Assembly (NCBI GenBank): GCA_019459525.1
Contig: JAIBEY010000084.1
Location: 31,358 to 95,357 of the forward strand
Length of the DNA stretch: 64,000 nucleotides
Direction of reading: 5' to 3'
From: Prolixibacteraceae bacterium
Lineage (GTDB): Bacteria > Bacteroidota > Bacteroidia > Bacteroidales > Prolixibacteraceae
Made by a program: the position numbers and the translations under genes. The notes under the pieces were generated by a model. That model saw only the letters and a program-made list of their open reading frames with translations. It did not search any database and was not told the DNA's origin. Positions 1,822-10,958 of the stretch are shown here, in pieces (positions within the stretch are counted from its first letter, which is position 1; each line of letters begins with the position of its first letter).

Positions 1822-3075
1822 TTAAATGCCAAAAGCTTTTTTAATCGGATCAACATAGTCGAGTTTTTCCCAGGTAAACAATTCTACTTCTGTTTCAATC
1901 CGGCCATTGTATGGCGATTCGAAAACTTTGGTAACTGTTTTGGGTTGACGCCCCATGTGTCCGTAGGCTGCCGTTTCGCGGTAAATCGGGTTGCGAAGTT
2001 TAAGCCTTTGCTCAATGGCTGCCGGTCGCAGGTCAAAAATTTCCTGAATTTTTTCTGAAATCAGGGAATCTGAAAGTCCTACAATTGCAGTTCCTTTCGT
2101 TTCCACATAAACACCAACCGGTTTAGCGACTCCAATAGCGTACGAAAGCTGAACCAGCATTTCTTTGGCAACTCCTGCTGCAACCATGTTTTTGGCGATG
2201 TGACGGGCAGCGTATGCAGCCGAACGGTCAACCTTCGAAGGATCTTTTCCGGAGAAAGCGCCACCACCATGAGCGCCACGACCTCCATAAGTGTCAACGA
2301 TAATCTTACGTCCGGTCAAACCGGTATCTCCGTGAGGACCACCAATTACAAATTTTCCGGTCGGATTAACGTGGTAAATAATTTCACCAGCAAATAAATC
2401 CTGAACTCGTTGTGGCAACTGTGCTTTCACGCGAGGAATCAGGATTTCGATCACATCTTTTTTGATTTTGGCCAACATCGGTTCGTCAGCATCAAAATCG
2501 TCGTGCTGGGTCGAAACCACAATGGTATGAATCCGCTTGGGCGAATGATCGTCGTTGTATTCAATGGTTACCTGCGATTTAGAGTCAGGACGCAAATACG
2601 TCATCACCTTCTGTTCGCGACGGATAACGGCTAGTTCGAGCAAAATGCGGTGCGACAAATCGAGTGGAAGCGGCATGTAATTATCGGTTTCGTCGGTAGC
2701 AAAACCAAACATCATCCCCTGGTCGCCGGCTCCCTGATCCATTTTATCGGCTTTGTCAACACCACGGTTAATATCCGGACTTTGCTCGTGAATGGCACTG
2801 AAAACACCGCACGAATCACCGTCGAAACGATATTCGGCCTTGGTATAACCAATCTGGTTAATTACCCGTCGTGCAGTTTCCTGTACATCGACATACGTAT
2901 TCGATTTTACCTCGCCGGCAAGTACAACCTGTCCGGTGGTAACTAAAGTTTCGATGGCAACTTTCGAGTTGGCATCAAAAGCGAGAAATTCGTCTAAAAG
3001 GGCATCCGAAATCTGGTCGGAAACTTTATCGGGATGGCCTTCTGAAACGGACTCGCTGGTGAAAAAATAACTCAT
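1822..3075 (-). CDS. metK: S-adenosylmethionine synthetase
   Basis: Cytosolic enzyme that makes S-adenosylmethionine from methionine and ATP. At 417 residues it is slightly longer than E. coli MetK (384). Hallmarks in order are [17 protein letters not shown] near residue 13, the ATP-binding [16 protein letters not shown] near 116, [14 protein letters not shown] near 246 and the P-loop-like [19 protein letters not shown] near 272. The ATG gives a standard N-terminus ([17 protein letters not shown]). The upstream region on the minus strand has two TAAATTTG boxes and implies a 5' leader of about 150 nt. SAM made here feeds the methylthioadenosine enzymes encoded about 6 kb away. Confidence 0.98.
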
Positions 3076-6327: not shown

Positions 6328-7641
6328 TCAGTTATTCTTGATCAGTGTCGAGATTGCATAGAGTGGAACAATTTCGATGTTTCCGTCTCTTCCAAAATTT
6401 TCGATCGACGAACGGATTCCTCTTTTCAGGTTCTTTTCCTTCATAAACAAGCGCATGCTTTGCATCTTTCCGCTATAGCCCGACTTAATTTCAACCGGGA
6501 CAATTTCCGATCCCTGACGAATTACATAATCAACTTCGGCATTACTTCCCCGTTCCTGCCGATGCCAATAAAAAAGCTGAGGCTTTTCGAGGATCGATGA
6601 TGCTTTCATCAATTCCAATCCGGCATAAATCTCAGCCAAACAACCCTTGTTCAACACATCCATTTCTTCAACAACCAGATATTCACGGATATTTAAACCC
6701 AAAATATGCTGAAAAATGCCCGTATCATACAGCAAAACCTTAAATTTCTTCGGATCCATTTGCGCCCCAAGAGGAAATCCGTTGGCCGAAGTATGGTAAA
6801 CCGGGTAAGCCAAACCTGCCATAAAAAGCAATTCGAGCGCTTCCTTTATTTGTGGAAGGCTAGCCTTTGCAACTACATTTGAATACACGAACTTGGCGCC
6901 TGCCTGTTCTACAATGCTGGCAAACACTTCGCGAATGCGGCTTTCAGGTACGCGCTTGTGGTACTTCGAAAAATCGTCGCGCATCGACAGCGATAAATCT
7001 GCAAGCACATTCAGCCCATTGAGTGTACTTTTGTTCTCAACCACCTGCCTGACCACCTCGGGAAGCCCCCCGGTTAGTAAAAATTGTTGGAAAAGGTCGT
7101 TCAGCTTCCGGTGAAAAACCGGATCAATTGGATTTTCACATGATGCCTGATCAATAATCTTCACGTATTGATCCATCTGATGAGCCAAAAGAAATTCATT
7201 GAACGACATCGGGTACATAAACATCGAACGAATGCGTCCTACGCCAAAAGAAGGAAGCTCGGTCAAGGCAAATTCAAGCAACGATCCGGCTGCAATCACA
7301 TGCAACCCAGGTATATTTTCATAGAAGAACCTAAGCGAAGAGATGGCTCTTGGACACTTCTGAATTTCGTCAAAAAACAATAAGGTCTGATTTTCATAAA
7401 TTGGGACACCGTAGTATGACGATAACCTATCGATAATCCTCACCGGATCAAGATTTTGAATAAAAAACTCAGCCACATCAGTGTCTTTTTCAAAATTTAC
7501 CTCAACGAAGTTGGAAAAAGTTTTCCCAAGTTCGCGTACCACATAAGTCTTTCCTACCTGGCGGGCACCACGTAACAAAAGAACCTTCCTGCTTGTGGAT
7601 TCCTTCCAGTCGAGCAAATTTCTGAATATATTTCGCCTCAC
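6328..7641 (-). CDS. AAA ATPase with C-terminal DUF4143
   Basis: A 437-residue ATPase of the widespread AAA_14/DUF4143 family, whose biochemical role is unknown. Walker A is GARQVGKTYVV (residues ~26-36), Walker B is LLFFDEIQKCP (~87-97) and the sensor region has HVIAAGSLLEFAL. The C-terminal DUF4143 part contains RQERGSNAEVDYVI and VPVEIKSG, which resembles a PD-(D/E)XK nuclease-like fold. The start is GTG with AAGG just upstream; no ATG is available near the conserved N-terminus. The gene stands alone, convergent to ispG. Its promoter region has three phased 17-bp repeats (separate entry), suggesting tight control. Some relatives behave as mobile or toxin-like accessory genes, but nothing here shows that. 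Confidence 0.92.
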   Translation of the reverse strand: MRRNIFRNLLDWKESTSRKVLLLRGARQVGKTYVVRELGKTFSNFVEVNFEKDTDVAEFFIQNLDPVRIIDRLSSYYGVPIYENQTLLFFDEIQKCPRAISSLRFFYENIPGLHVIAAGSLLEFALTELPSFGVGRIRSMFMYPMSFNEFLLAHQMDQYVKIIDQASCENPIDPVFHRKLNDLFQQFLLTGGLPEVVRQVVENKSTLNGLNVLADLSLSMRDDFSKYHKRVPESRIREVFASIVEQAGAKFVYSNVVAKASLPQIKEALELLFMAGLAYPVYHTSANGFPLGAQMDPKKFKVLLYDTGIFQHILGLNIREYLVVEEMDVLNKGCLAEIYAGLELMKASSILEKPQLFYWHRQERGSNAEVDYVIRQGSEIVPVEIKSGYSGKMQSMRLFMKEKNLKRGIRSSIENFGRDGNIEIVPLYAISTLIKNN

Positions 7642-7676
7642 TACCTTGATTTTAAGCTAAAAACACCAATTTAAAC

Positions 7677-7759
7677 AAAAAGTCAAGGCAAATATACGTC
7701 ATTTTCAACAAAAAGTCAAGGCAAATTCAAGCAATAAAAACCAAAAAGTCAAGGCAAGT
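7677..7759 (-). repeat. Three 17-bp direct repeats at exact 33-bp spacing
   Basis: Copies at 7677-7693, 7710-7726 and 7743-7759 read AAAAAGTCAAGGCAAAT on the plus strand; the third has one change (GT for AT at the end). The period is exactly 33 bp, about three helical turns, so all copies face the same side of the DNA. A related inverted copy (CCTTGATTTT) lies near 7652. They sit directly upstream of, and overlap, the promoter of the DUF4143 ATPase gene. They are read here as a regulator-binding array; the regulator is unknown. Confidence 0.85.
7689..7719 (-). promoter_or_regulatory. Promoter of the DUF4143 ATPase gene, embedded in the repeats
   Basis: On the minus strand TATATTTG (7689-7696) matches the -7 box exactly. 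TTG at 7717-7719 lies 20 nt upstream as the -33 element. The -7 box overlaps repeat copy 1 and the -33 lies inside copy 2, so binding to the repeats should affect polymerase directly. Predicted start near 7682, giving a leader of about 40 nt. Confidence 0.65.
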
Positions 7760-7767
7760 TTATCAAA

Positions 7768-8397
7768 TTAAAGAAATTTCTGAAACACTTCTTCTATTTT
7801 TTGCCCTAGCTCCAACCAGTATCCCTTCAGCCCGCAACCAATGGCAGCTTCCACATTGGGTAGCGAATCGTCAATAAAAATAGACTCTTCAGGATTTATT
7901 CCAGAAAGTCGGATGATTTCCTGAAATGATTCGGGTGATGGTTTACGGCAACCAATTTCGTTGGAATAGAAGTCTATCTCAAAAAGTGATGAAACATCAA
8001 AACCATGTAGTTTTCGAAAATCGGCATGATATTGTTTGACATGAATGGCATTGGTATTGCTGAACAGATAGATTTTATAGTTATTCCGAAGATTTTTCAC
8101 CAGTTCAACCCGGTTCGCCGGAAAATCGAGCAACATCGCTGTCCATGCGGTATCAATCTGATCATCTGTAACTTCTGCGGAAATTAACTGCCGGACACCA
8201 TTTCGAAATTCTTCCGGAGTAACTTTACCTTGTTCCATCAGGTAAAAAATGTCGTGATCGTACGAAAGACCTTTATCTCCAATAAGTTGCTCCATGCCAA
8301 GCCTGCCAAAGGCTTCAATGGTTTTTTTAGGATCAATATTCAGTAAAACACCACCCAGATCGAAAATGATATTTTTTACTCCATTCAGGATTTCCAT
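7768..8397 (-). CDS. HAD-superfamily phosphatase (subfamily IA, YihX-like)
   Basis: Cytosolic haloacid-dehalogenase-fold hydrolase, probably a sugar-phosphate or nucleotide phosphatase; the substrate is unknown. Motif I is IIFDLGGVLLNID, in which the second Asp is replaced as in YihX-type enzymes. Motif II is YLFSNTNAIH, the motif III Lys is in CRKPSPESF and motif IV is SIFIDDSLPNVEAA. The ORF track begins at a TTG (8421); I prefer the ATG at 8397, which gives MEILNGVKNIIFDLGG. It is divergent from the mtnA operon, and no functional link is visible. Confidence 0.9.
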   Translation of the reverse strand: MEILNGVKNIIFDLGGVLLNIDPKKTIEAFGRLGMEQLIGDKGLSYDHDIFYLMEQGKVTPEEFRNGVRQLISAEVTDDQIDTAWTAMLLDFPANRVELVKNLRNNYKIYLFSNTNAIHVKQYHADFRKLHGFDVSSLFEIDFYSNEIGCRKPSPESFQEIIRLSGINPEESIFIDDSLPNVEAAIGCGLKGYWLELGQKIEEVFQKFL

Positions 8398-8488
8398 AAA
8401 GTCAGATTTGTGAGACCACAAAAGTCATAAAAAATCCGGAAAATGAAAGGAACACGAATGTTATGAGTAGTTTAAATGATTGGATATT

Positions 8489-8496
8489 TATCTTTG
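8489..8496 (+). promoter_or_regulatory. -7 box of the mtnA operon
   Basis: TATCTTTG is an exact TAnnTTTG match 23 bp before the chosen mtnA start. It lies inside the longer ORF of the track, which argues against the upstream start codon. Confidence 0.5.
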
Positions 8497-8518
8497 GGTA
8501 TCAAAAAAATGTACAATC

Positions 8519-9613
8519 ATGGGTAATCCGCAAACTATATGGTTTAACCACCAGAAAAATAGTGTAGAAACGATTGATCAGCGTCACCTGCCGTTTCTGA
8601 ATCTGATTTATGAAATTGACACATTGGAAGAAGCCCGGTTCGCCATTACTGAAATGGTGGTGCGAGGCGCTCCGCTCATTGGTGTTACCGCAGCATACGG
8701 AATGTATCTGGCAGCCTGCAACTTCTCCGGAAATGATTTCAGAGCCGAAATGAAACGCGCTGCCGAATGGTTAAAATCATCGCGACCAACTGCAGTAAAT
8801 TTGGCTTTTGCGGTTGATGAAGCGCTTTCTGTCGTTTCGGACCAACGTAGCATTTTACAGAATACTCAACTTTTACTTGAATATGCTGAATCGCTAAAGC
8901 AGCGCGAAATTGAATTCAGCAAACAAATTGGAATGCATGGGTTCGGACTAATAAAAGCGATCAGCAAAGCAAAGAATGGTGAGCCGGTTCAAATCCTCAC
9001 ACACTGCAATGCCGGGCGATTGGCTTGTGTGGAACTGGGAACTGCCACCGCTCCCATTTATCTGGCACACGAAGCCGGCATTCCGGTTCACGTCTGGGTT
9101 GACGAAACCCGTCCACGCAATCAGGGCGCCAGATTAACTGCATGGGAACTGGGTGAAGCCGATATTCCGCATACGGTGATTCCTGATAATACCGGAGGTC
9201 ACTTGATGCAGCATCAAATGGTCGATCTGGTTATTGTTGGAAGCGACCGAACGACCATGAACTGTGATGTAGCCAATAAAATAGGAACGTACCTGAAAGC
9301 ATTGGCCGCTGCCGACAACGGTGTTCCGTTTTATGTGGCGCTGCCTTCAACCACCATCGACTGGACTATAAATGACGGCATTACTGAAATTCCCATTGAG
9401 CAACGCAATGCGAGCGAAGTTTCGATGATGGAAGGAAAATTGGGTGATGAAATCTATGAATTCCAAATACTTCCGGAGAAAAGTCCGGTAGCCAATTACG
9501 GATTTGATGTAACTCCTGCAAGGCTGGTTACCGGGCTAATTACAGAGCGAGGCATTTGCAAAGCTACACGCGAGGGTATTTTAAGTTTATTCCCTGAAAA
9601 AAGTAAAAAATGA
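8519..9613 (+). CDS. mtnA: S-methyl-5-thioribose-1-phosphate isomerase
   Basis: Converts (methylthio)ribose-1-phosphate, or 5-deoxyribose-1-phosphate, to the ribulose form. Family motifs include VRGAPLIGVTAAYG, the catalytic-Cys motif THCNAGRLA, WVDETRPRNQGARLTAWEL and the catalytic-Asp motif VGSDRTTMNCDVANKIGTY. The ORF begins at 8480, but the natural start is the ATG at 8519 (MGNPQTIWFN), after the -7 box. At 364 residues it is of normal length. Its stop overlaps the start of the class II aldolase gene (ATGA), and that gene is likewise coupled to mtnP, so the three are one translationally coupled operon. Confidence 0.96.
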   Translation: MGNPQTIWFNHQKNSVETIDQRHLPFLNLIYEIDTLEEARFAITEMVVRGAPLIGVTAAYGMYLAACNFSGNDFRAEMKRAAEWLKSSRPTAVNLAFAVDEALSVVSDQRSILQNTQLLLEYAESLKQREIEFSKQIGMHGFGLIKAISKAKNGEPVQILTHCNAGRLACVELGTATAPIYLAHEAGIPVHVWVDETRPRNQGARLTAWELGEADIPHTVIPDNTGGHLMQHQMVDLVIVGSDRTTMNCDVANKIGTYLKALAAADNGVPFYVALPSTTIDWTINDGITEIPIEQRNASEVSMMEGKLGDEIYEFQILPEKSPVANYGFDVTPARLVTGLITERGICKATREGILSLFPEKSKK

Positions 9614-10215
9614 CAGAAGGATACATCAAATTTAATTGCAACTGGGAGCAAAAAGAAATCCAGATTCAGGATGAAATTTTCGTACAACTCGAAGCTGCAA
9701 GAACCCAACTTTATGAATTAGGGTTAATTGGCATGTACCCTGACGGAATCGGATTCGGGAATATCTCAGTCAAATCTGCCGGAAGCTCATCATTCATCAT
9801 CACTGGAAGTGCAACAGGCCAATTCGCTAAACTCGAACCAAAGCATTTTGCACTCGTTACCGACTACAATTTCACCCTGAACACCATTTCATGCACAGGC
9901 CAAACAAAAGCATCGGCTGAAAGCCTCAGTCATGCCGCCATTTACGAAACATTTCCTGAAGTCGGCGCTGTTGTTCATGTTCACAGCCTTTCGTTATGGG
10001 AAAAACTATTGAATATTCTTCCAACTACTTCTGCAGAAATTGAGTACGGAACTCCTGAAATGGCCAGAGCAATCCGGGAGCTAATTTCAGAGATGAAATC
10101 TGATGAAAAAGTGATTGTGATGGGTGGGCACCGCGAAGGAATTCTTGCATTTGGCCAAAATCTGGAAGAAGCAACATCTGAAATTATCAAAATCTATAAT
10201 CGACTATCAAAATGA
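9610..10215 (+). CDS. Class II aldolase/adducin-family protein of the MTA operon
   Basis: A 201-residue zinc-dependent class II aldolase-fold enzyme. Visible metal ligands are the His pair in VVHVHSLS (near residue 125) and a third His in MGGHREGILAFG. The acidic catalytic residue is in SAESLSHAAIYE, and the phosphate-binding start is GFGNISVK with FIITGSATG. Lying between mtnA and mtnP it has two possible roles: methylthioribulose-1-phosphate dehydratase (MtnB of methionine salvage), or the aldolase of the DHAP shunt, which cleaves (methylthio)ribulose-1-phosphate to DHAP plus an aldehyde. No mtnC, mtnD or mtnE is present, which favours the aldolase reading. The call rests on context, not on a specificity motif. 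Confidence 0.85.
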   Translation: MTEGYIKFNCNWEQKEIQIQDEIFVQLEAARTQLYELGLIGMYPDGIGFGNISVKSAGSSSFIITGSATGQFAKLEPKHFALVTDYNFTLNTISCTGQTKASAESLSHAAIYETFPEVGAVVHVHSLSLWEKLLNILPTTSAEIEYGTPEMARAIRELISEMKSDEKVIVMGGHREGILAFGQNLEEATSEIIKIYNRLSK

Positions 10216-10958
10216 CAAAAATTGCCATCATCGGCGGCTCTGGACTCGAAAACCCTGCGATTCTGAAAAATGCTACAGAACTAAAAATTGAGACTCCTTA
10301 CGGACCAACCACCTCCGATTTTAAATGCGGAATAATCAACGGTCACGAAGTAGCCATCCTTTCCAGGCACGGACGCCAGCACACCATTCCGCCCACGCAG
10401 GTAAATAACCGCGCCAACATTTGGGCCATTCGCGAAATAGGATGCACACATATTCTGGCAACTACGGCCTGTGGAAGTCTGCGTCAGGAAATTGGACGTG
10501 GCGACTTTGTGGTACTCGATCAGTTCATCGATTTTACCCGCCACCGGCCAATTACTTTTTTCGAAGTATTTGAGCCCCGCGAAATGAGACACACTCCAAT
10601 GGCCGATCCGTTTGATAGCTATTTACGGACAAAAATCATTGAAACAGCCCGTGAACTGAGCATGAATATTTTTGAGACCGGAACTGTGATTACCATCGAA
10701 GGACCCCGTTTCTCTACCCGTGCTGAGTCGAACATGTTCCGCATTTGGGGAGCTGACGTGATCAATATGTCCACAGCTCCGGAAGCCATTTTAGCAAACG
10801 AACTGGGAATTCCTTATGCAGCCATTGCCATGAGTACCGATTACGACTGCTGGAAAACCGATGAAGCCCCGGTAACCTGGGGAGATGTGCTTAAAGTTTT
10901 CAACCAGAATGTCAGCCACGTAATTGATTTACTGGTTCATACCATTGAAAAGATTTAA
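10212..10958 (+). CDS. mtnP: S-methyl-5'-thioadenosine phosphorylase
   Basis: Phosphorolyses methylthioadenosine (and often 5'-deoxyadenosine) to adenine and the ribose-1-phosphate derivative that MtnA uses. The purine nucleoside phosphorylase fold is shown by IAIIGGSGLE, LSRHGRQHTIPPTQVNNRANIWA (phosphate binding) and TTACGSLR. NMSTAPEAILANE and AMSTDYDCW follow, the Asp of the latter being the adenine-specific residue of MTAP-type enzymes. At 248 residues it is shorter than human MTAP (283). It is the last gene of the three-gene operon, overlapping the aldolase gene by 4 nt. Confidence 0.95.
   Translation: MTKIAIIGGSGLENPAILKNATELKIETPYGPTTSDFKCGIINGHEVAILSRHGRQHTIPPTQVNNRANIWAIREIGCTHILATTACGSLRQEIGRGDFVVLDQFIDFTRHRPITFFEVFEPREMRHTPMADPFDSYLRTKIIETARELSMNIFETGTVITIEGPRFSTRAESNMFRIWGADVINMSTAPEAILANELGIPYAAIAMSTDYDCWKTDEAPVTWGDVLKVFNQNVSHVIDLLVHTIEKI

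Follow-up and report, generated by a model that had tools for sequence, protein, structure and literature searches.

Phased direct repeats at the promoter of a DUF4143 (PDC-S01) ATPase gene: a putative private operator

The locus raises the question of why three short direct repeats stand, evenly phased, at the promoter of a gene encoding a DUF4143 ATPase, and which protein may recognize them. It was studied in a 64,000-nt stretch of DNA from a Prolixibacteraceae bacterium, here called the window. Few candidate antiviral genes of bacteria and archaea are as common as those of the DUF4143/PDC-S01 family, and no function for them was found in the literature searched, which did not include subscription papers and preprints.

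The repeat array and the promoter of the ATPase gene

On one side of the array is a HAD-like hydrolase gene (7768-8421) that runs in the same direction, and on the other is the ATPase ORF, which begins with GTG at position 7641. The distance between the last core and this GTG is 34 bp; the start is at the same residue in orthologues. The array consists of three identical 16-bp cores, TTGCCTTGACTTTTTG on the gene strand and CAAAAAGTCAAGGCAA on the + strand, with start-to-start distances of 33 and 33 bp, and a period of 33 was also called for it by Tandem Repeats Finder. An earlier, sequence-only reading had described near-identical 17-bp repeats in exact 33-bp phasing. The phasing was borne out, while only 16 bp are identical in all copies, the 17th base being common to two of the three. 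The placing of the sites on one helical face holds only approximately, as 33 bp corresponds to about 3.1 turns. The spacers between the three cores are not conserved. In the 5.54-Mb genome a 15-mer of the core has three exact matches, all in this array, and allowing one mismatch gave a single genomic site, inside an ORF (L004). Since the exact 15-mer occurs only here, the array is not explained by chance, and the scattering of the motif in unrelated intergenic places, which would have argued against an operator, was not seen.

The same reading had placed a −7 box across the gene-nearest copy and a −33 element in the middle one, and both placements were confirmed (Table 1). The sequence TATATTTG is the Bacteroidota −7 form, and the TTG of the middle copy, at 7719-7717, lies 20 bp from it, which is a plausible −33/−35 position. 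A sigma-70-style scan returned TTGACT-17-TATATT at 7719-7691, although one match of this kind is about what chance would give in a region of this size. The conservation data and the promoter scans together show that conserved sites overlap the promoter of the ATPase gene.

Table 1. The ATPase gene and the elements of its upstream region (positions in the window)
Feature	Position	Strand	Remarks
AAA_14-DUF4143 ATPase, PDC-S01 family	6328..7641	-	437 aa, GTG start; proposed autorepressor
Putative −7 box TATATTTG	7689..7696	-	overlaps the gene-nearest copy
Operator copy nearest the gene, TTGCCTTGACTTTTTG	7676..7691	-	overlaps the −7 box and the expected transcription start
Middle operator copy	7709..7724	-	holds a plausible −33/−35 TTGAC
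Upstream operator copy	7742..7757	-	identical core

The conservation of the array was compared among 14 orthologues from the genus, with protein identities of 79–100%. The pairwise identity was about 96% for both the upstream and the middle copy and 82% for the copy nearest the gene, and it was 57–58% for the spacers versus 46% for fourfold synonymous sites of the gene. In L083, L085, and L086 the gene-nearest copy has decayed, with its TATATTTG part kept. The 33-bp spacing was found in 14 of 14 orthologues, and the variation of spacing among relatives that would have told against the earlier proposal did not appear here or in the wider scan described below. As judged from the 14-orthologue comparison, selection acts on the repeats. 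The preference for protein binding over chance or recent duplication, also put forward in that reading, is upheld because the cores are far better conserved than the spacers, although binding itself has not been demonstrated. The three repeats before the DUF4143 ATPase gene form a genuine control element, the binding and the repression being inferred.

A defence-island context was considered for the window copy of the gene and rejected, as its flanking genes are housekeeping genes. Genes for an IF-2B family protein (MtnA-like), a class II aldolase, and a nucleoside phosphorylase stand in a row in the window and resemble a methionine-salvage cluster, and an apparent S-adenosylmethionine synthetase gene is nearby (named by eye); the stretches concerned are 8480-10958 on the + strand and 1822-3075 on the - strand.

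Recurrence of the motif and private repeats across the family

A scan of 84,980 GTDB species genomes for two copies of the motif at any spacing of 20–50 bp detected 29 loci, 26 of them at exactly 33 bp. In 23 of these 26 the pair was followed directly by a DUF4143 ATPase gene in the matching orientation. The hosts belong to Bacteroidota, Aminicenantes, Neomarinimicrobiota, Delongbacteria, Deltaproteobacteria, Clostridia, and Treponema. Three loci were spaced otherwise (L049, L054, and L056), and none of them had a DUF4143 gene beside the repeats. L053, where a longer stretch is perfectly duplicated in tandem without any relation to DUF4143, was set aside. A viral link was dropped; the two viral_contigs matches both had 21-bp spacing.

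Two loci contained 33-bp motif pairs without an adjoining DUF4143 gene. One pair stands alone in a MAG of Delongbacteria (L037:1984-2028), and the other is a solitary two-copy operator before an unrelated gene (L044:939-983). The spacer of the latter also matches that of L040:4779-4856, a DUF4143-linked operator from the same MAG, which suggests that L044 is a relic of duplication or deletion. The TTGCCTTGACTTT motif was also found with proteins only about 30% identical (L033, L042, and L046), which indicates that the specificity code does not simply follow overall similarity; these three loci were fetched through the motif, and convergence was thereby selected for.

The recurrence of the window motif before other DUF4143 genes, which the earlier reading had proposed as a check, was seen in these GTDB loci and not in the genome of the window itself. 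That genome has eight full-length DUF4143 genes, all eight with promoter-proximal repeats, and the repeat sequences are all different. They include AAAATTACCCTAACTTTGTG in three copies at 33 bp (L079), GCCAAATTAGGAAGT in four copies at 23 bp (L076), CTCAACTTATTGAGTAAAT in two copies at 22 bp (L078), and inverted-plus-direct arrangements (L073 and L074). In the last two, which are short-clade genes with differing repeat sequences, an inverted pair and then a direct copy are arranged around the −7 box.

The extent of such repeats was assessed in two samples. Among 115 genes drawn by Pfam domains, a repeat with at least 14 of 16 matches at 32 or 33 bp was present in 42, including 31 of 50 long-clade genes, compared to 1 of 212 control genes. 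The second sample consisted of 45 homologues collected by protein similarity alone in an order-level search (38–57% identity); a phylum-wide protein search at E 1e-85 had returned only the window's own gene. Strong repeats were detected in 39 of the 45, at exactly 33 bp in 35, and their sequences varied from gene to gene. When direct or inverted repeats were counted, 75% of long-clade, 54% of middle-clade, and 53% of short-clade genes had them, versus 6% of control intergenic regions; under the criteria used, about half of the short-clade genes showed no strong repeat.

The pitch was characteristic of the clade: 33 bp (in some 32) for proteins of at least 429 aa, 23 bp at around 424 aa, and 32 bp below 390 aa. 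Closest relatives had the same pitch in 72 of 93 cases, compared to 49.5 after permutation (maximum 65). The commonest copy number was three (48 of 83 arrays), and the −7 form TAnnTTTG was located within or at most 30 bp from 48 of 66 Bacteroidales arrays, with 7.9 expected. In Metallosphaera, the archaeon of L049, several DUF4143 paralogues also had distinct repeats or palindromes near their starts, as read by eye without separate statistics. These take the form of alternating inverted half-sites or palindromes (L329, L327, and L321), and in L329 several ACTTGTC copies alternate in orientation. As far as these surveys can tell, most DUF4143 relatives have their own, differently worded repeats at near-fixed spacing, and this combination suggests that each protein may bind its own promoter.

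The ATPase and the identity of the binding protein

The window protein matched PF13173 (AAA_14, E 5.9e-26) and PF13635 (DUF4143, E 1.2e-26), both past the cut-off, and the PADLOC PDC-S01 profile over residues 1-433 (E 3.2e-136), which all 19 aligned relatives matched too. By these profile matches it is a member of the PDC-S01 family and a candidate antiviral gene, its antiviral activity being unvalidated. Up to 35 DUF4143/PDC-S01 matches were found per genome. PDC-S01 has been described as an ATPase fused to a PD-(D/E)XK domain that ranks fourth in frequency among the defences of prokaryotes, and most PDCs still await experimental validation (PMC12988326). The AlphaFold2 model (pLDDT 87, pTM 0.88) contains an AAA+ domain, a winged helix at about residues 230-303, and a C-terminal alpha/beta PD-(D/E)XK fold. 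Residues D370, E383, and K385 are invariant in the 19 relatives, so that the D and the ExK of PD-(D/E)XK are kept, and a match to Cas4 was weak (E 0.19). The model and the retained residues meet the expectation for a nuclease-like PD-(D/E)XK domain, with nuclease activity itself inferred at most. The best PDB matches in Foldseek were Orc1/Cdc6 on origin DNA (E 1.6e-8, global TM about 0.3) and ORC on DNA.

The relation between the repeats and the encoded proteins was then compared, and a covariation run with motif-fetched loci was discarded as biased. The data showed that a motif was shared by 2–8% of gene pairs below 45% protein identity, by 10% at 45–50%, and by 19% at 50–55%, rising to 43% at 55–65% and to 88% at 65–76%; sharing in the reverse-complement control was about 1%. 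A Mantel test of site versus protein gave a rho of 0.22 (p 0.005), and −0.09 in the reverse-complement control. Paralogues of one genome had a motif in common in only 4 of 43 pairs. Because sharing climbs with identity and is rare between paralogues, a common host-encoded regulator does not fit these observations, while the encoded protein does. However, linkage and shared ancestry alone predict some correlation between a gene and its upstream region, and the co-divergence is therefore support rather than proof. No protein region, the winged helix included, clearly stood out in region-wise Mantel, per-column, and sliding-window tests. Of the two candidate regulators named at the outset, one encoded elsewhere and the ATPase itself, the latter is favored as the binder in the absence of binding data, given that the paralogue operators differ, that the motif follows the gene across phyla, and that its similarity tracks protein identity.

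We consider it likely, without data on binding or expression, that the ATPase represses its own promoter through a private phased operator. The DUF4143 (PDC-S01) ATPase would bind its own direct repeats as an AAA+ oligomer, probably through the winged-helix domain, each 33-bp unit taking a single protomer or dimer and the binding being cooperative. When bound, the array would cover about −60 to +10 of the promoter and keep the gene repressed; that derepression serves defence is a further inference. The pitch of 33 bp here, and of 32 or 23 bp in other clades, would be set by protein geometry, and the recognition sequence proper to each member could allow many paralogues to exist in one genome without cross-regulation. 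A broader idea, which we hold to be possible only as a minor prospect, is that the array is a working partner of an Orc-like ATPase-nuclease. An inactive oligomer would sit on the sites until infection releases both the gene and the protein, by titration, DNA damage, or replication through the array. The private sequences would then be identity tags that let dozens of modules coexist per genome, like plasmid incompatibility groups.

Two other explanations also involve protein bound to the DNA. A separate regulator, encoded elsewhere, could bind the repeats and control the ATPase gene, and a precedent is provided by RptR, a small repressor acting on direct repeats in a defence locus (PMC12255303). 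We regard this as unlikely, considering that one genome would have to encode a distant regulator for every one of its eight paralogues, that the operator accompanies the gene in several phyla without any shared neighbor having been noticed, and that the neighbors of the window gene are housekeeping genes. Alternatively, the bound array could be an activator or an assembly platform, the AAA+ protein loading on these iterons as Orc1/Cdc6 does on origin repeats, transcription control being secondary. The best fold matches point this way, the constant pitch and the usual three copies would suit an ordered oligomer, and the fused PD-(D/E)XK domain retains its D and ExK residues. On the other hand, the frequent −7 boxes place the arrays on promoters, as expected for repression, and the element is confined to one end of the gene and has no further copies in the genome, which leaves the platform a slender chance.

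Explanations without a DNA-bound protein fared far worse. The repeats could act in RNA, as a repeat antitoxin like that of type III toxin-antitoxin systems or as another leader element; an array of roughly 33-nt tandem repeats just before a gene bears a superficial likeness to ToxI, and the gene-strand 126-mer folds better than its shuffles (z −2.83). However, in the folded stem the middle copy is paired with a part of the leader that is missing in other orthologues, the spacer, which makes up half of each unit, is unconserved at 57% identity, and neither a terminator-like site nor an Rfam match was found. Moreover, with the predicted promoter located within it, most of the array would be untranscribed. 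The type III pattern, in which the whole unit is conserved and transcribed ahead of a terminator, is not seen here, and a role in RNA is very improbable. Slippage does yield short tandem arrays, yet chance or a recent tandem duplication without function is hardly credible: the cores are kept while the spacers diverge to near the synonymous level, the spacing never changes, and unrelated sequences have the same pitch in relatives, by which this explanation is already refuted. Autorepression by the ATPase remains the preferred reading. A private phased operator before most members of the family predicts a DNA-binding specificity for each protein straight from sequence. Such operators give a direct way into the study of the family, a ready assay, and an explanation for the coexistence of paralogues, and they offer hundreds of natural protein-operator pairs for work on the recognition code.

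Comparison with known systems

No earlier description of these operators was found in the literature searched, subscription papers and preprints being outside the search. In the paper describing PDC-S01 the terms operator, promoter, autoregul-, and repress- are absent, and the few uses of "repeat" concern other matters (PMC12988326). RptR binds three direct repeats in the promoter of an E. coli defence island (PMC12255303). It is a separate, small protein whose site is a 6-bp palindrome, while the sites in the window are about 16 bp long, asymmetric, at a 33-bp pitch, and paralogue-specific in sequence, with no separate regulator seen.

A tentative likeness to archaeal Orc1/Cdc6, in the predicted combination of AAA+ and winged helix, comes from the top fold matches, in which these proteins are bound to DNA. 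Archaeal Orc1/Cdc6 origins contain repeated asymmetric recognition elements. The DUF4143 proteins differ in their extra C-terminal PD-(D/E)XK fold and agree with Orc1/Cdc6 only to the low global TM given above, and their sites are in the gene's own promoter, which has not been shown to be an origin. The operators of autoregulated toxin-antitoxin systems and phage repressors are private to each paralogue, overlap the promoter, and co-diverge with the encoded protein; here, in contrast, the operator belongs to a single large ATPase gene and not to a small repressor or a gene pair. The private phased operators are an addition to the description of PDC-S01.
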